This document shows positions 4,607 through 34,276 of a DNA stretch of 35,332 nt, piece by piece. The stretch's first letter is position 1. The number at the start of each line of letters is the position of its first letter. The translations under genes and the position numbers were made by a program. The notes under the pieces are model-generated. The model was given only the letters and a program-made list of their open reading frames with translations, was not told where the DNA came from and did no database searches. The stretch is from Holosporales bacterium (GTDB lineage Bacteria > Pseudomonadota > Alphaproteobacteria > UBA3830 > JAIRWN01): NCBI GenBank assembly GCA_031268985.1, contig JAIRWN010000005.1:1-35332 (forward strand), given 5' to 3'.

Positions 4607-5497
4607 TTATGTTTTTTTAGATAAGGGATGGGTAGCCAGAAGCTCTGCTCTCATTTTTTCGTTGCTAACATGAGTATAAATTTCGGTAGTCGTAATACTT
4701 TGATGCCCTAACATTTTTTTTACGCTAAACAGATCTGCGCCATTATTTACAAGATGGGTCGCAAACGCATGACGCATAACGTGCGGAGAGACCAGATTTT
4801 GGTCAATTCCCGCAAAATCGGCAAGAGTTTTTATTATCTGAAAAATTCGCTGCCTGGTAAGCCTTCTTTTAGGGACATTAGATGGAAATAACCAACTGGT
4901 ACTGATAAGCTTATTTTGAGCCGTCCACTCTTTTACAAGAAATAATAGCTGCTTCGGGACCGGAACAACGCGTTCGCGCCCACCTTTGCCAAGCACGAGA
5001 ACATGCCGGCCATCAAAAGATATCGAATTTACTTTTAAGTCCAGAGCTTCACTCACACGAAGCCCGCTTCCATAGAGAAAATGCATAATTAGCTTAGCGC
5101 GCAAAGACTCCGGATATTTCAGCATTTCTGTGGCCTGAAATATTTTAAAAACTGACTGTATATCCAAAAATTTTGGCAAACTCTTAGCAGTACTTGGGTT
5201 ATCGATGTATAATGTTGGATTAAGGTTTATTAACTGCTCTTCTGTAAGAAAGTTATAAAACTGCCTCAGCGTAGATAAATGACGACAGATTGTTTTATTT
5301 GACTTTTTCTGATCGTGGAGCAATTCCATATAATCTGTAATATTAGCTACAACAACAGCCTTAAACGGAATGCGCCCTATAAATTTTTTGAAATCCTGTA
5401 AATCACTTACATAAGATTTAACTGTGTTTTCCGCGCTTCCGTGTTGGCCTATGAGAGTTTCTGCAAAAAGCTCTACTAGATTGTCTTGCTCCGGCAT
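4607..5497 (-). CDS. xerD: Site-specific tyrosine recombinase XerD
   Basis: XerD acts with XerC at the dif site to resolve chromosome dimers. The 296-residue protein has the SAM-like N-terminal core-binding domain (residues 1-100) and the catalytic domain. All six active-site residues are visible: Arg147 (GSGLRVSE), Lys171 (LGKGGRER), His239 and Arg242 (HVMRHAFATH), His265 (MLGHQSITTT) and the nucleophile Tyr274 (EIYTH). The motif TTEIYTHVSNE and the ending ATHPLSKK match XerD better than XerC. Length is usual for the family. Its start overlaps the end of lspA by 22 bases, so it is translated from the ileS-lspA message. Nothing points to a phage origin. Confidence 0.9.
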   Translation of the reverse strand: MPEQDNLVELFAETLIGQHGSAENTVKSYVSDLQDFKKFIGRIPFKAVVVANITDYMELLHDQKKSNKTICRHLSTLRQFYNFLTEEQLINLNPTLYIDNPSTAKSLPKFLDIQSVFKIFQATEMLKYPESLRAKLIMHFLYGSGLRVSEALDLKVNSISFDGRHVLVLGKGGRERVVPVPKQLLFLVKEWTAQNKLISTSWLFPSNVPKRRLTRQRIFQIIKTLADFAGIDQNLVSPHVMRHAFATHLVNNGADLFSVKKMLGHQSITTTEIYTHVSNEKMRAELLATHPLSKKT

Positions 5498-6012
5498 TCG
5501 CTATTTAAAAACGTATAAAAGATTATTATAGCCGTTCCAATACATATAAACGTGTCCGCAATATTAAACGAAGGCCAATGGTAATCAAAAATATGCCAAT
5601 CAATAAAATCAATCACCGACCCTATTCGAATACGATCAAACGCGTTACCAATAGCGCCTCCGGCAATGAATCCAACTGAAACAGAAACCATTAATCTCCG
5701 GCTCCTCACAACCCACACAAATAAGGCAAAGGCGATCGCTACAGCAAAAAATGCAAATATCGCAGAGCTATCGAAAGGCAAGCTGTGAAAAAGCCCGAAA
5801 CTTACGCCTCGATTATAGACGATACAGATATTAAACCATGACGTCAGACATATCCCTGCAAACTGAGAATTGCGATCAAAATACTCAACAATTGCTTGCT
5901 TTGACCATTGATCTACAGAGGTTACAAATACAGTTAACAAAAAACTAATGAGCAAAAAAAACAGTCTTTTAGACGTTGGCCACTTTCTTACATCTATTAC
6001 AAATTTCTTCAT
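5476..6012 (-). CDS. lspA: Lipoprotein signal peptidase (signal peptidase II)
   Basis: LspA cleaves the signal peptide from diacylated prolipoproteins in the inner membrane. The protein is 178 residues with four hydrophobic segments (about 16-34, 60-77, 84-102 and 150-168). The catalytic aspartates are Asp135 in GSVIDFIDW and Asp153 in FNIADT, 18 residues apart as in Escherichia coli LspA. VYNRGVSFGLF is the conserved VxNxGxAFG segment. I chose the ATG at 6012 because upstream codons in this frame run inside ileS and do not look like LspA. With this start the gene overlaps the ileS end by 44 bases and the xerD start by 22, an unusually tight packing. The ribosome binding site is weak, so translation is probably coupled to ileS. 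Confidence 0.9.
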   Translation of the reverse strand: MKKFVIDVRKWPTSKRLFFLLISFLLTVFVTSVDQWSKQAIVEYFDRNSQFAGICLTSWFNICIVYNRGVSFGLFHSLPFDSSAIFAFFAVAIAFALFVWVVRSRRLMVSVSVGFIAGGAIGNAFDRIRIGSVIDFIDWHIFDYHWPSFNIADTFICIGTAIIIFYTFLNSECRSKTI

Positions 6013-8878
6013 TGTTTTGACTAACTTCGGGTAAAATCTTCCAACAACGTCGACATTTTCCTCCTTTGGCCAAGTTAACTTCGATACCGAAAGAAACGTT
6101 TCCTTCTGTAAAACTTGCCTCTTCCGGCGGATGGGAAGATTTAATTTCAACGCAGGATGTAATGAACAACTCCGCCAAATCTTCAGATGAAAATTCGGAA
6201 GCGATTCCATCTGGGTCATAGAGAGCCACGCACGCCTGCAAACTTGAACCTATAATTTTCTTCTCACGAGCACGCTCAAGGGCCAAAGTTGCAGCAGAAC
6301 GTAAAATCTTCACAAGTCGCCACTTTTCTTCGCAGTCAGGATCGTACCATTCGGTTGGAATATCCGGCAGAACCTCCAAATGAACGCTTTCTGACCCGAG
6401 ATTTCGCGCAAGCCAGGCTTCCTCAGCCGTGAAAGATATTATGGGAGCAAGCCACTTAACAACGGCGTCAAATACTACGGATAAAGTATTCAAGTACGCC
6501 ATACGCTTGGGATTAGCGTCCTCATCACAATATAAGCAGTCTTTTCTTATATCAAAATAAAATGCAGACAAGTTATTACTGCAGAAGTTATGCAGTTCCA
6601 TGACAATCCTATTTAGCTCAAATGTTTTAAGATGTTCATTTATTGTTTTATCTAAACAGGCAATTTTATGTAAAATCCACTTATCAAGTTCACTTAAATA
6701 TTCATAGTCAAGAAGGCAACTTTCGTATTGATCCAACGCGCCAAGCATATAGCGCAAAGTATTTCTGAAACGCCTGTAAATATCTTCCTGTTGTTTCAAG
6801 ATTGCAGGGCCGAACTTCATGTCTTCGGTATATTCATTGTTTACCGCCCAAAGCCGCATGATATCGGCGCCATTTTTATTGACGATATCCATAGGGTCGA
6901 TCACGTTTCCAAGCGATTTAGACATCTTGTAGCCATACTCGTCCACCACAAACCCATGAGTGAGCACAGTTTTATACGGCGCCTTACCGTAGGTAACACA
7001 AGAATGCAAAAGCGACGCTTGAAACCATCCCCTGTGTTGATCAGACCCCTCTAAGTATAAATCCGCCGGCCAGCCCAGTTCTTCTCGGCTTTTGATCACA
7101 TAGGCATGAGTGCTGCCGCTTTCTAGCCAAACATCAACTATATCGAATACCTGCTCAAAATCATCGGCGTTATATTTGTCGCCAAGAAAATCTTGGGCCG
7201 GATGAGTGTACCAAGCGTCAGTTCCTTCAACCTCCACGATTGATGCAATCCTATTAATAACCTCCCGGTCTTTAAGAGCATCTCCGGTTTTTTTGTCTAC
7301 AAATATCGTTATGGGCACTCCCCAAGAGCGCTGTCTGGATATGCACCAGTCGCCACGAGCACTGACGAACGACTTTATCCTGTTATAGCCTTGTCCAGGC
7401 AACCATTTAACCGTATCAATTGCCTTTAACGCACTTTCGCGCAGCCCGGTTTTGTCTAAACTGATAAACCACTGCTTGGTCGTACGATATATAAGCGGAG
7501 CTTTGGAGCGCCATGAATGCGGATAACTGTGAAGAATCTCCTTCGCAGCCAATAACGCTCCCGGACGCTTACGGAGATGATCGAGGATATCCTGCTCAAC
7601 TTTAAAAATATGCTTGCCGGCAAATATCGGAACGTAATCGCAATAGCATCCACCATCATCAACGGTCTGTACAGCGCGGACGCCATATCTCTGGCAAACA
7701 TAAAAATCGTCTAAACCATGACCTGGAGCTGTATGCACAAGCCCTGTGCCAGAATCAGCCGTTACATGTTGTCCTTCAAGCAAAAGAATATCAAAATCAT
7801 ACCCCATACCAGCCCAAGGATGACTGGCGTAAAAGTCGTCCGACCCAGGGCTGGGTTCCATTGGCGACGATCCGACCCCTGGATCAGTAGTAACGTGCTT
7901 ACCGTCGATCAATTTAACATCAAAATTATAGCCCATACCAGCCCAAGGATGCTGGCAAACGATGCTTTTAAGCTCACCGGGACTAACCTGCCGAATTACG
8001 TTATATTCAACCGCATCTATATCTTTCAGAAAGCGATCTTTAAGCTCTTCTGCCACAATTATTTTGGTATTAAGACCCTTGTCCTCAAGACAACCTTTGA
8101 TAGAAACAAGAATGTACTTAATTTTATCTGAGTACGAAATCGCTCTATTGCCCGGCAGCGTCCACGGAGTAGTCGTCCAGATAACACACGACGCGTCAGT
8201 CAAATCAGCTGACAGAGCTTTTTTTATCTTAAAAGCGACGTATATGCTCATGGACTTTTTGTCTTTGTACTCAAGCTCAGCTTCAGCAAGCGCGGTCTTC
8301 TCGACAACAGACCATAGAACCGGTCGTTCGCCACGATAAATGGCTCCGCTCATAAGCAACTTTCCAAATTCACGGATCATAATTGCTTCATTTTTAGGAT
8401 CCATAGTCAAATACGGATTGTCCCAATCGCCCAACGCCCCCAACCGTTTAAAACTTTTGCGTTGTACGTCAATCCAATAGGTTGCAAAGTCGCGGCACAT
8501 ATTGCGAAACTCGACTGAGCCTGGATTACTCTGCTTTTCGTCCTTAAGTCTCTCAGCTACCTTCCACTCAATTGGCAATCCATGACAATCCCATCCGGGC
8601 ACAAACGGCGCATCGTACCCTTGCATTTGTTTAAACTTGATGATTGCATCTTTTAGAATACGGTTTAACGCTGTTCCCGCATGTGGCGAACCATTTGCAA
8701 ACGGCGGGCCGTCGTGAAGTATAAATTTTGGCCTCCCTCCGGATTTTTTCCTAAGTTTTTTATATAATCCTATTTTTTCCCAATACGCAAAAATTTCGGA
8801 CTCTTTTTCAGGCAAAGCCGTCTTCATCGAAAACGACGTTTTCGGCAAGAAAACAGTTGATTTATAATCGGCAGTCAC
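5969..8878 (-). CDS. ileS: Isoleucyl-tRNA synthetase with duplicated editing segment
   Basis: This class I synthetase of 969 residues charges tRNA-Ile and is of the bacterial type. The GPPFANGSPHAGT segment (58-69) replaces the usual HIGH with HAGT. WTTTPWTLPGN (234-244) is the threonine-rich editing peptide of the CP1 domain. HVTADSGTGLVHTAPGHG is the second editing motif. KMSKS is at 651-655 and a C-terminal zinc ribbon uses Cys942, 945, 960 and 963. The start is a GTG at 8878, with AGAGGGTT upstream overlapping the atpD end. The oddity is that residues 310-352 and 353-395 are two tandem 43-residue copies, both beginning HPWAGMGY and ending near DDFY. The first lacks the GTG.VHTAPGHG core and reads GVGSSPMEPSPG. 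Most of the length above the family's usual 930-945 residues is this extra copy. It sits between atpD (14-base gap) and lspA. Confidence 0.96.
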   Translation of the reverse strand: MTADYKSTVFLPKTSFSMKTALPEKESEIFAYWEKIGLYKKLRKKSGGRPKFILHDGPPFANGSPHAGTALNRILKDAIIKFKQMQGYDAPFVPGWDCHGLPIEWKVAERLKDEKQSNPGSVEFRNMCRDFATYWIDVQRKSFKRLGALGDWDNPYLTMDPKNEAIMIREFGKLLMSGAIYRGERPVLWSVVEKTALAEAELEYKDKKSMSIYVAFKIKKALSADLTDASCVIWTTTPWTLPGNRAISYSDKIKYILVSIKGCLEDKGLNTKIIVAEELKDRFLKDIDAVEYNVIRQVSPGELKSIVCQHPWAGMGYNFDVKLIDGKHVTTDPGVGSSPMEPSPGSDDFYASHPWAGMGYDFDILLLEGQHVTADSGTGLVHTAPGHGLDDFYVCQRYGVRAVQTVDDGGCYCDYVPIFAGKHIFKVEQDILDHLRKRPGALLAAKEILHSYPHSWRSKAPLIYRTTKQWFISLDKTGLRESALKAIDTVKWLPGQGYNRIKSFVSARGDWCISRQRSWGVPITIFVDKKTGDALKDREVINRIASIVEVEGTDAWYTHPAQDFLGDKYNADDFEQVFDIVDVWLESGSTHAYVIKSREELGWPADLYLEGSDQHRGWFQASLLHSCVTYGKAPYKTVLTHGFVVDEYGYKMSKSLGNVIDPMDIVNKNGADIMRLWAVNNEYTEDMKFGPAILKQQEDIYRRFRNTLRYMLGALDQYESCLLDYEYLSELDKWILHKIACLDKTINEHLKTFELNRIVMELHNFCSNNLSAFYFDIRKDCLYCDEDANPKRMAYLNTLSVVFDAVVKWLAPIISFTAEEAWLARNLGSESVHLEVLPDIPTEWYDPDCEEKWRLVKILRSAATLALERAREKKIIGSSLQACVALYDPDGIASEFSSEDLAELFITSCVEIKSSHPPEEASFTEGNVSFGIEVNLAKGGKCRRCWKILPEVSQNNEEICNRCKKVANV
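7694..7951 (-). repeat. Two tandem 129-bp units inside ileS editing domain
   Basis: Unit 1 is 7823-7951 (residues 310-352) and unit 2 is 7694-7822 (residues 353-395). They align without gaps at protein level. The start of each unit shares about 20 identical bases (CCCATACCAGCCCAAGGATG on the plus strand). The rest has diverged: positions for the fold (HPWAGMGY.FD, GkHVT.D.G.G, DDFY) are kept, while the editing core is kept only in unit 2. Confidence 0.9.
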
Positions 8879-29627: not shown

Positions 29628-29731
29628 AGGTAACCACTAGCGTTTCATGTGATTTAGGTTTTCTTAGCTTTTCGTGGAGTTAATAACCTACCCCACATTT
29701 CCCCCATGTTTTGTGTAGATGGAGTTTAGAT

Positions 29732-30364
29732 ATGTCTGTGGACAGGGATGAATTTTTACAAGAGCCGGCATCAAATACCCCTGAAGTATTTAATGGGAGA
29801 CCGCGTGCGCTAGATGAAGATAAATCGCTGGAACTAAGCATTCTTGAGGAAGTATTCAAGAAATTTGATGCGATTAAGAATCAGCTTCATCTATATGAGC
29901 TTGCGGAGATGGTTGTTGAAAACAGAGTTGAAAACAGAGAGGTCAATGCATTAGAGAGACTTAAGTGCAAAGTCAGACCTATCTTTAATCCTGAGTTCAA
30001 CACTGTAGATGAGTATCTCAACGCACATAAGGAGGCATGGGCGGCGAAGACCAATAAATATCAAGAAATACTCAAAGACTGCCAAGCTAATATTGCTGAC
30101 ATCATATCCGATATAGATAGTTATTGGGATGTTGGTTTGATTGGCTTTTATAAGGCTATTATTCACTTTATCGATGGCAAGGTTAGCAACCAGATCGATG
30201 GTAAGGTTAGCAACCAGGGTGTTTTCTTTCAGTTAAGTAAAGATCTGTTAAAGAGTTGCAAGGTAGCAATCAACGTCTTAGCTAAGTCATATCCTTATGA
30301 GTATAGATTCAAGCGTAATCTTCCGATTGATGACACGTTACCGTACATACTGTGTGGATGCTAA
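29732..30364 (+). CDS. Unknown protein of the tRNA-linked element, with tandem duplications
   Basis: A 210-residue protein I do not recognise. It is charged and helical, acidic at the N-terminus, without membrane segments or signal peptide. GGAG 7 bases before the ATG at 29732 decides the start. Two in-frame tandem DNA duplications are visible. A 12-base unit at 29915-29938 gives VENR VENR. A 24-base unit at 30170-30217 differs in one base and gives IDGKVSNQ twice. Its last 68 bases overlap the next ORF in another frame, so the two may be one protein split by a frameshift. It is the first gene after the tRNA, where an integrase would be expected, but it has no recombinase motif. Confidence 0.65.
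   Translation: MSVDRDEFLQEPASNTPEVFNGRPRALDEDKSLELSILEEVFKKFDAIKNQLHLYELAEMVVENRVENREVNALERLKCKVRPIFNPEFNTVDEYLNAHKEAWAAKTNKYQEILKDCQANIADIISDIDSYWDVGLIGFYKAIIHFIDGKVSNQIDGKVSNQGVFFQLSKDLLKSCKVAINVLAKSYPYEYRFKRNLPIDDTLPYILCGC
30170..30217 (+). repeat. 24-bp tandem duplication
   Basis: Two adjacent 24-base units (30170-30193 and 30194-30217) differ at one position (C or T at base 9). The duplication is in frame inside the unknown ORF. A second, 12-base perfect duplication is at 29915-29938. Both look like recent slippage events. Confidence 0.9.
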
Positions 30365-31066: not shown

Positions 31067-31369
31067 ATGGATTTTGAAAAGATTTTAAGCGGGGTTAAAT
31101 CAGAACTGATATCTCGCAAGGACTTAGCCGCTCTTCTTGGCATGAGTCCCAACACGCTCAGAAACTTGGATGCGCATGGCATTGGAGTGCCTGGCAAGAT
31201 TAGGACTGGGCACAGGTCAGTTAGTTATCCGACTGCAAATGTAGCACCATGGTTAGAGAGCAGACATCTCAAATATAGCAACGCGCCGATAACCATCACG
31301 TCAAATGCTTTTTTAGCTAAGGAGAAAAAGGCTGCCGTCACTTTAGGAGCTGAGGTGGCGAATGGTTAG
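31067..31369 (+). CDS. Helix-turn-helix DNA-binding protein (AlpA/MerR-like)
   Basis: A 100-residue protein. ISRKDLAALLGMSPNTLRNLDAHGIGVPGKIRTGHRSVSYPTANVAPWLESR is a winged helix-turn-helix of the AlpA/excisionase/MerR-like type, which reads DNA at phage promoters or attachment sites. GAGG at 31056-31059, 7 bases before the ATG at 31067, sets the start. It overlaps the next gene by 8 bases (ATGGTTAG), so the two are coupled. As the first gene of the replication cassette it may regulate it or act in excision. It is too short and general to assign a specific role. Confidence 0.75.
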   Translation: MDFEKILSGVKSELISRKDLAALLGMSPNTLRNLDAHGIGVPGKIRTGHRSVSYPTANVAPWLESRHLKYSNAPITITSNAFLAKEKKAAVTLGAEVANG

Positions 31370-32243
31370 TTTTAAAGAAGCGTTGGACGGTGTTGGTATT
31401 CCACATCCAAGCCAAGATATCGCGGAAGGTAGATTTAGTCGTTGGGGCAAGAACAGCAGATATTGGGCTAAAGCCGTAGGAGCCGGCTATGTGTTTGGCG
31501 ATTATGTTAACGGTATAAGCGAGTGCGTATTTCCTAGATGCGAGGCTAATAGCAAAGATTGGGAAAAATATAGACGACAGATAAAGGCTGTTAGAGAAAA
31601 AAACAAACGCGAAGAAGCAGCAGCGGAAGAAGCGTTGTGTATATGGAACGATAGTGTGCCCATATCTGGTCAGAGTCATCCATATTTGAGATCTAAGGGG
31701 GTAGACTCATTCGGTCTTAGGGTTCAAGGCAATAACTTAATAGTCCCGCTGTACGAAACAGACGGCAGGCTCTCAAGCATCCAGTACATTTACTATGACT
31801 TTGGTACTTCTGATTGCAAAAAAAGGTTTCAACCTGGCTGTAAAACGAAAGGCTGTTTTTATCTTTTTGGGTGCGATTCTGAGCGCATTCTATTGTGCGA
31901 AGGGTATGCGACAGCAGCTTCAATTCACATGGCTACAGGCGAGCAGACTGTGGTGTGCTTCAGCAGTGGAAACATGGCTGCTGTGGCGTATGCACTGAGA
32001 ATGAAATATCCGGCCAAAGAGATAATCATATGTGCTGATAATGATGAGACGGGCCTAAAGGCAGCCAAGGCTACTGGGCTTAAGTACATGTATCCAAAGT
32101 TTGAAGACGTTGGGATTGATAGGTTTAGGAGGTTGACAGGCTTTACAACGTCAGTCCAGTCTGATGGTCGTCCCACAGACTTTAATGATTATGGGAATAT
32201 TTATGGTTTGGAGGATTTGAGAAAATGTTTGAAGAAGATATAA
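31362..32243 (+). CDS. Toprim-domain protein, primase-like
   Basis: A 293-residue protein with a Toprim nucleotidyl-transfer fold. ILLCEGYATAASIHMATG carries the catalytic Glu180, and IIICADNDETGLKAAK carries Asp226 and Asp228. The N-terminal part (HPYLRSKGV, NNLIVPLYETDGRLSSIQYIY) matches the region before Toprim in phage and plasmid primases of the DUF7146/TraC-like type. No CHC2 zinc finger and no DnaG catalytic core is present, so independent primase activity is doubtful. The start overlaps the HTH gene by 8 bases and the end overlaps the DUF927 gene by 19 bases, so all three are one operon. Primase-helicase pairs like this drive replication of phages and satellites. Confidence 0.82.
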   Translation: MVSFKEALDGVGIPHPSQDIAEGRFSRWGKNSRYWAKAVGAGYVFGDYVNGISECVFPRCEANSKDWEKYRRQIKAVREKNKREEAAAEEALCIWNDSVPISGQSHPYLRSKGVDSFGLRVQGNNLIVPLYETDGRLSSIQYIYYDFGTSDCKKRFQPGCKTKGCFYLFGCDSERILLCEGYATAASIHMATGEQTVVCFSSGNMAAVAYALRMKYPAKEIIICADNDETGLKAAKATGLKYMYPKFEDVGIDRFRRLTGFTTSVQSDGRPTDFNDYGNIYGLEDLRKCLKKI

Positions 32244-34078
32244 AAAGCGCCCCCGCTAGGAAGGTGGGGGCCTATACTGAAACCAGTTGTGGTTCTATCA
32301 CCTCTGCGGAGAGGTTCCAACAGTCTAGCGATGTTCCTGATGAGCCTGCCAATGACGTTGTCGTCGGGCAGGAGTTGGAGGGGCCTGGCGTTGAGGTATG
32401 CGAAGCCTGCGTGCTTGCGTCTGACGCAAACGGCTTTTTCCGCAAAGCGGACGGTTCGCTGTGGAAGGCAGGCGAGAACGGCAAAGAGGCCGTTTGCATC
32501 AGCGAGGATTACATAAAAGTTGTGGGTTTAAGCAGAACGCTCGAGAGTGACGAGTGGCGCATGCGAATAGAGTTCAAGGACTTGGACGGTAACATTCAGA
32601 GTATTGATGTGGACTGCTCGGTTCCTTTTGATAACAAAGAAATCTTAAAAGCTTTAAGGAACAGAGGCTTTTATATTCCCGCTAAATACCAACGGCATGT
32701 TTTAAACTATTTGCAGTCTGCAATTCCCGACAGGAGGATTAGGAAGATTGACAAGACAGGTTGGATTAATGGCTGCGAATATATATGTCCATCGTTTAAG
32801 GTTATACGTTCTGATAACGATGAACAGTATGAGCTGCCGAAGACTGCGCAAGGCTGGGGCTATGACCAAGAAGGCACTCTGGAAGACTGGCAGGAGCATG
32901 TAGCCAAGTATTGTATCGGCAATCATATTCTGACGTTATCTTTGTGTATTGGGTTATCAGGGCTATTGCTGAGGCTCTTTCCGCAGATAGGGACGACAGT
33001 TGTTAATTTGATTGGTAAAACTTCTTTAGGCAAGACGACGGCTCTTAAAGTAGCGGCGTCTTTGTGGGGAGGTCAGAAGTATGTCAAGCAATGGAGGGCT
33101 ACTGACAATTCTCTTGAGAGCATAGCGGAGGCGCATAACGACGGCCTACTGATTTTAGACGACCTTGGCCAAGCAGACTCCAAGAAAGTTGGAGAGATTG
33201 CCTATATGTTGGGAAACCAGAGAGGCAAAGGGCGGTGCAATGCCAATTCATCCCTGAAGAGAATCAAGAGCTGGAGTTTATCGGTACTGAGCAGCGGCGA
33301 GGTCAGTTTGGAAGATAAGCTGAATGAAGCAGGTCTTAAGGCCAAAGGAGGGCATAAGGTAAGGTTTATCGACATAGACGCGATAGTCTCAGACGAATGT
33401 GGCATATACAACAATCTTCATGGATTAAATTCAGGAGCTGAATTATCGAACCATTTGAAAGAACAGGCTTCTAAGTATTACGGGATTGTATCAGAAAGGT
33501 TTGTGAATTGGTTGATTGAGCAAGATGGCCTTGTAGATAGATTGAATAGTCTATACCGGCAAGCCAAAGAAAAGCTCATCAACAAATTCTGTTTATCTGC
33601 AGCTGATGGAGAGGTTTTGCGAGTAGTTGACGTATTCACTTTGTACGCAACAGCAGGAGACCTAGCCGTTAGCTTTGGCCTTTTCCCCACCAAACTGAAT
33701 GTTGAGGAGGCGATAGGCTTTGTCTTTGAGCGTTGGCTGAAGGACAGGGGTGGGAAGAGGAATGTCGATGAGGAAGAAATAATCCAGCATATTATGGGTT
33801 GGCTTGGTCAGTGTCAGAGCAGTTTTTTGAATGTGGCTAAGAAGGCTGACAATTCAGGTAAGCTTGAGGCTAGCATGACTAATTATTCGCCTAACAAGTT
33901 ATATGGATATGTCCATAAAACTGATAATGAGACTAGAACTTACTACATTTTTTTAAGAATCTTCAAAGAAGAGGCATGTAAGGGCTATGGCGAAAAAACA
34001 GTGAAGAAGGCCTTGCATAAAAAGGGCATATTGACGCTGGGCTCCGACGGTTACTCTCCAAAAACTAAAATGGCATAA
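32225..34078 (+). CDS. DUF927-type replicative ATPase/helicase
   Basis: A 617-residue phage/plasmid replication ATPase. Residues 1-65 are low-complexity. The DUF927 region follows (about 95-450): GFYIPAKYQRHVLNYL, GWIN, then Walker A NLIGKTSLGKTT (262-272), ALKVAASLWG and Walker B GLLILDDLGQ (307-315). The segment LSSGEVSLEDKLNE is the usual sensor strand. The C-terminal 150 residues are helical and could be a DNA-binding or loading part. It overlaps the Toprim gene by 19 bases, and the two probably act together as a split primase-helicase. Arginine is mostly AGG/AGA (for example AGG AGG ATT AGG near 32733), which differs from the CGN-rich core genes and suggests transfer. A GC-rich hairpin lies just inside its 5' end. 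Confidence 0.85.
   Translation: MFEEDIKSAPARKVGAYTETSCGSITSAERFQQSSDVPDEPANDVVVGQELEGPGVEVCEACVLASDANGFFRKADGSLWKAGENGKEAVCISEDYIKVVGLSRTLESDEWRMRIEFKDLDGNIQSIDVDCSVPFDNKEILKALRNRGFYIPAKYQRHVLNYLQSAIPDRRIRKIDKTGWINGCEYICPSFKVIRSDNDEQYELPKTAQGWGYDQEGTLEDWQEHVAKYCIGNHILTLSLCIGLSGLLLRLFPQIGTTVVNLIGKTSLGKTTALKVAASLWGGQKYVKQWRATDNSLESIAEAHNDGLLILDDLGQADSKKVGEIAYMLGNQRGKGRCNANSSLKRIKSWSLSVLSSGEVSLEDKLNEAGLKAKGGHKVRFIDIDAIVSDECGIYNNLHGLNSGAELSNHLKEQASKYYGIVSERFVNWLIEQDGLVDRLNSLYRQAKEKLINKFCLSAADGEVLRVVDVFTLYATAGDLAVSFGLFPTKLNVEEAIGFVFERWLKDRGGKRNVDEEEIIQHIMGWLGQCQSSFLNVAKKADNSGKLEASMTNYSPNKLYGYVHKTDNETRTYYIFLRIFKEEACKGYGEKTVKKALHKKGILTLGSDGYSPKTKMA
32249..32271 (+). other. GC-rich hairpin at the Toprim/DUF927 junction
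   Basis: GCCCCC (32249-32254) pairs with GGGGGC (32266-32271) around an 11-base loop, six bases past the Toprim stop and 24 bases into the DUF927 frame. No T run follows. It could slow ribosomes or the polymerase and tune the ratio of the two proteins. Confidence 0.45.
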
Positions 34079-34276
34079 TTTGTCTGTAATTTTATATACT
34101 TATATTATTTAGGGGATGTGTGTAGCATTAATCTGCCGGTTTAGAGCGTGGGGATATATAGATTCTCTATTTTAAAGGGCGTATGTAGGGGTAATTATTT
34201 TTGGTGTTAAGTCTTTTAAGGTGGGTTACATCAACGTACGGTCGTTTAAATGAGAATATGCCCCCCCCCTTCAAGT
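34079..34276. other. Convergent gap between the DUF927 gene and the terminase relic
   Basis: About 200 bases, AT-rich, without an open frame or clear terminator. It ends with a run of nine C at 34261-34269, just past the 3' end of the terminase relic. Confidence 0.5.

Follow-up and report, generated by a model that had tools for sequence, protein, structure and literature searches.

A genus-specific in-frame tandem duplication within the editing domain of isoleucyl-tRNA synthetase in a Holosporales bacterium

The isoleucyl-tRNA synthetase (IleS) encoded in the window, that is, in the whole 35,332-nt stretch of DNA analyzed here (contig JAIRWN010000005.1 of a Holosporales bacterium), carries a genus-specific in-frame duplication that leaves the editing site intact; it is a known enzyme in a lineage-specific form, and a modest curiosity. 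We consider it likely that an in-frame tandem duplication has given rise to a tolerated, constrained surface loop on an IleRS that still edits. According to this explanation, the duplication of 43 codons in the CP1 editing domain of ileS was a single event in the stem lineage, and the species of the genus share it by descent. Since then, the downstream copy would have stayed the beta-strand and editing-site segment (GTGxVHTAPGHGxDD), and the upstream copy, released from catalysis, would have kept its first half, diverged from the editing signature over its last 19 residues, and become an extra excursion of ~43–44 residues at the H-P position of CP1. Charging of tRNA-Ile and editing of Val-tRNA-Ile should both persist in this enzyme, the latter at a presumably normal level, and the role of the insert is probably structural or mildly modulatory. 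The protein offers a natural case in which an editing-site segment was duplicated inside an essential enzyme and survived, with one copy catalytic and the other drifting yet constrained, and it is a ready test of the tolerance of CP1 to insertion. A narrow search of the open-licence literature found no papers describing such a duplication in a synthetase.

The ileS gene and its internal repeat

The window ileS (Table 1) belongs to the TIGR00392 equivalog family, which it matches with 871.2 bits against a cut-off of 621.4, and it is the single IleS of the 858-kb genome, in which the remaining matches are weak (25–34% identical). A preliminary description, made by a model from the letters and their open reading frames, had proposed that residues 310–352 and 353–395 are gap-free repeats of 43 residues; the repeat is real and its coordinates are exact. 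The two units align without a gap, with 24 of 43 residues and 82 of 129 bases identical; when copy 1 was shuffled 20,000 times, the identities always stayed below 24. A repeat search also returned it, as a direct repeat of 74 nt (spacing 129 nt, 76% identical) that exceeds all others of the region in length, and no further large tandem duplication of this kind was found in the window. The units had been described as ending in DDFY, which both contain, although each runs two residues further, to DDFYAS and DDFYVC.

Table 1. Coordinates of ileS, its duplicated segment, and its editing residues in the window
Feature	Position	Strand	Remark
ileS, isoleucyl-tRNA synthetase	5969-8878	minus	969 aa; GTG start at 8876-8878 = residue 1
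Copy 1, residues 310-352, HPWAGMGYNFDVKLIDGKHVTTDPGVGSSPMEPSPGSDDFYAS	7823-7951	minus	additional, diverged unit without editing signature
20-base stretch of copy 1, same as in copy 2	7932-7951	minus	
Copy 2, residues 353-395, HPWAGMGYDFDILLLEGQHVTADSGTGLVHTAPGHGLDDFYVC	7694-7822	minus	ancestral editing segment; 24 of 26 conserved positions kept
20-base stretch of copy 2, same as in copy 1	7803-7822	minus	
T235-T240, Thr-rich editing motif TTTPWT (E. coli T241-T246)	8159-8176	minus	T235-T237 invariant in 35 sequences; T240 is T or S
H382, equivalent of E. coli H333	7733-7735	minus	invariant in 35 sequences
D391, equivalent of E. coli D342	7706-7708	minus	invariant in 35 sequences

Distribution and origin of the duplication

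Two further genomes of the same genus, G001 and G002, encode IleS proteins (79% and 78% identical, respectively) that can be aligned with that of the window over their full length and contain both copies, with a copy 1 of 44 residues in each, one more than the 43 of the window. G002 (L035; JAIRYS010000010) is Holosporales bacterium isolate Gsp477_bin58, and another MAG of the Gsp477 series has the lower termite Glyptotermes as its source (PMC11707648); from the sample name, a termite-gut origin may be inferred for G002. Across the order, 48 of 50 genomes matched IleS, and both copies were spanned in three, all of this genus. In the other 45, which are without the duplication, the match begins at query residue 45 or later, over copy 2. 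In a sample of 385 Alphaproteobacteria, the doubled segment was spanned, among the matches listed, only by G000 and G002, both of this genus, and when copy 1 with its flanks was probed in 398 genomes of the phylum (121 of which matched at all), two matches were found only in the window's genome. In an alignment, 32 single-copy relatives show a clean gap of 43–44 residues. In a tree of the segments, the six copies from the three genomes form one group (0.97) and their copy-1 sequences a clade (1.00), although with a stretch of just 43 residues it is supportive only. Because the sister genomes carry both copies, the other matching genomes of the order lack the duplication, none of the listed matches from outside the genus in the alphaproteobacterial sample spans it, and the copies group in the tree, we conclude that the duplication arose once, in the stem of this genus, and was inherited thereafter. 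The comparison with relatives that had been proposed earlier thus finds an insertion shared within the genus and absent from the other matching genomes of the order, and the earlier view that a segment of the editing domain was tandemly duplicated is borne out, as is the suggestion that the event is old.

As to which copy is original, 26 positions of the segment are at least 80% conserved among the single-copy relatives. Copy 2 retains nearly all of them (Table 1), including 13 of 13 in its catalytic half; copy 1 retains 11 of 13 in its first half and 6 of 13 in its second. This bears out the initial reading that the editing core was kept downstream and lost upstream, and copy 2 is the ancestral editing segment.

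Selection on the upstream copy and its predicted structure

Copy 1 is under purifying selection. Between G001 and G002, its 17 base changes produced five amino-acid changes against a neutral expectation of 11.4 (P = 0.00025), a test that rests on these 17 substitutions in one genome pair. The dN/dS ratio is lowest in copy 2 (0.007), intermediate in ileS outside the repeat (0.043), and highest in copy 1 (0.17), and at the shorter, sister-to-sister distance copy 1 is under weaker constraint than the remainder of ileS. Between the window and G001, where synonymous sites are saturated, copy 1 is constrained about as much as the rest of the protein, since it is 77% identical against a gene average of 78%, and this constraint lies chiefly in the first half, the first 25 residues being 92% and the last 18 residues 56% identical.

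AlphaFold2, run on an alignment of 35 sequences, modeled the window IleS with a mean pLDDT of 85.6, and the best Foldseek match of the model is Priestia IleRS1 (8c9f; TM 0.88), which places it within the IleRS fold. The sole segment of at least three residues with a pLDDT below 50 is exactly 310–352, where the alignment holds three sequences only and low confidence may reflect its shallowness rather than disorder. In copy 2, strands are predicted at 363–368 and 381–383 and a helix at 389–397. A model of the sister CP1 alone, from 12 sequences, is poorer (pLDDT 64) and again has a low-confidence excursion, of 44 residues, in this case spanning residue 7 of copy 1 to residue 6 of copy 2; we attribute this shift to the alignment, which would set the H-P of the relatives on copy 1. 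When the relatives were cut after DDF to deepen the alignment over copy 1, MAFFT still aligned the main part of the segment to copy 2. From the models, we infer that one of the two repeat units protrudes as a loop at the CP1 H-P position, with an ambiguous register. The structure prediction that had been suggested at the outset thus yields a standard IleRS with one repeat unit looped out at very low confidence, and the earlier idea that the duplication may add a surface is compatible with such a model.

The strongest alternative is that copy 1 has gained a new function as an additional, ordered beta-hairpin or loop, which would be in contact with tRNA-Ile, with the synthetic domain, or with a partner protein and would alter editing, translocation, or stability. 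Purifying selection on copy 1 and the conservation of its first 25 residues despite saturated synonymous sites argue for it; however, neither AlphaFold2 model gives copy 1 an ordered structure, its last 18 residues have diverged much further, and the constraint on its first half may reflect merely the needs of folding or the avoidance of interference. We regard this alternative as unlikely. Somewhat more doubtful is the specific case in which copy 1 forms an ordered structure that is new to the editing domain and adjusts proofreading through contact with tRNA-Ile or some other region of the enzyme; if true, a catalytic segment would have been duplicated in an essential synthetase and turned regulatory.

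Sequence similarity between the copies

The 20 bases shared by the copy starts are present as first described, and the preliminary description had seen in them, against the diverged remainders, either an old event or partial gene conversion. The event is indeed old, but gene conversion is not needed to explain the similarity. If partial conversion held the copy starts alike, the identical run would be one sign of it (P = 0.012 given both proteins, uncorrected, for a run that was picked by eye beforehand), and another would be the Ala codon, which the two copies of a genome have in common (GCT in the window, GCA in either sister). On the other hand, the Gly codons beside this Ala do not track within genomes, copy 1 of G002 departs from its copy 2 at W3L and M6V, and overall the same codon is used at 13 of the 24 shared residues, where codon usage predicts 10.8 (P = 0.21). 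From these codons, a contribution of gene conversion appears weak at best, and we consider it improbable.

The editing site

In E. coli IleRS, the editing residues T241, T243, T246, H333, and D342 have been studied; H333 keeps Ile-tRNA-Ile from being edited, and D342 serves in editing catalysis (PMC9023258). All of their equivalents (T235, T237, T240, H382, and D391) are present in the window IleS, the last two in copy 2. At the position equivalent to H333, copy 1 has Pro in the window and Gln in the sisters; at that equivalent to D342, Asp is still there. The preliminary description had also raised the possibility that the duplication is tolerated as the editing pocket decays, which would be conceivable in a reduced genome of this size, as the loss of editing can be tolerated: a B. 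subtilis strain with ileS(T233P), whose quality control is defective, grows as fast as the wild type (PMC5282499). However, because every tested editing residue is present, decay is unsupported, and with copy 2 almost invariant (dN/dS about 0.007) we hold it to be very improbable. An assembly or binning artefact, for which nothing was found in favor and to which we give practically no weight, is ruled out by the presence of both copies, diverged, in three separately assembled genomes.

Other features of the window

Following ileS on the same strand is lspA (5476–6060; Pfam Peptidase_A8), and an in-frame ATG (MKKFVIDV...) lies near the ileS end, so that the two genes seem to overlap slightly. 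A phage-like stretch at 31362–35120, with a Toprim primase, a DUF927 primase/helicase, and, on the opposite strand, a fragment of a terminase large subunit (PHROGs), lies near chromosomal housekeeping genes. Within the ORF at 29711–30364, positions 30170–30217 hold a second, recent in-frame tandem duplication, of 24 bases, the two units being 95% alike. The ORF at 1142–2473 (443 aa) has a signal-peptide-like start, no Pfam match, and three diverged copies of a 31-base stretch at distances of 180–240 bases, features that suggest an exported protein with internal repeats.

Comparison with known isoleucyl-tRNA synthetases

Among the class I signatures, KMSKS is present in the window IleS, and the HxGH position reads HAGT (residues 66–69; 8672–8683), with Thr in place of the last His of HIGH. 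HxGH was found in all IleRS1 examined in a previous study (PMC10485003). HAGT also occurs in L006, L035, L013, L014, L016–L019, L065, and others, and a DNA pattern for HxGT in context matches 33 of the 50 genomes of the order and 51 of the 385 Alphaproteobacteria, several of these matches lying near the IleS match on the same contig, as checked for some of them. To specialists, this form of HIGH may be more interesting than the duplication.

Compared with single-copy IleS from other genera of the order (L008–L034, L065), the window protein is 51–57% identical over the C-terminal two thirds, and their segment corresponds to copy 2; unlike the window IleS, they have no duplicated segment. With bacterial IleRS in general (TIGR00392; IleRS1 structures 8c9e/8c9f, 1ffy, and 8wnf), it shares a full-length family match, the same fold (TM 0.88 to 8c9f), and intact KMSKS, editing motifs, and C-terminal zinc finger, and it differs in having a further 43-residue unit inserted at the CP1 H-P position and in a HIGH signature that reads HAGT.
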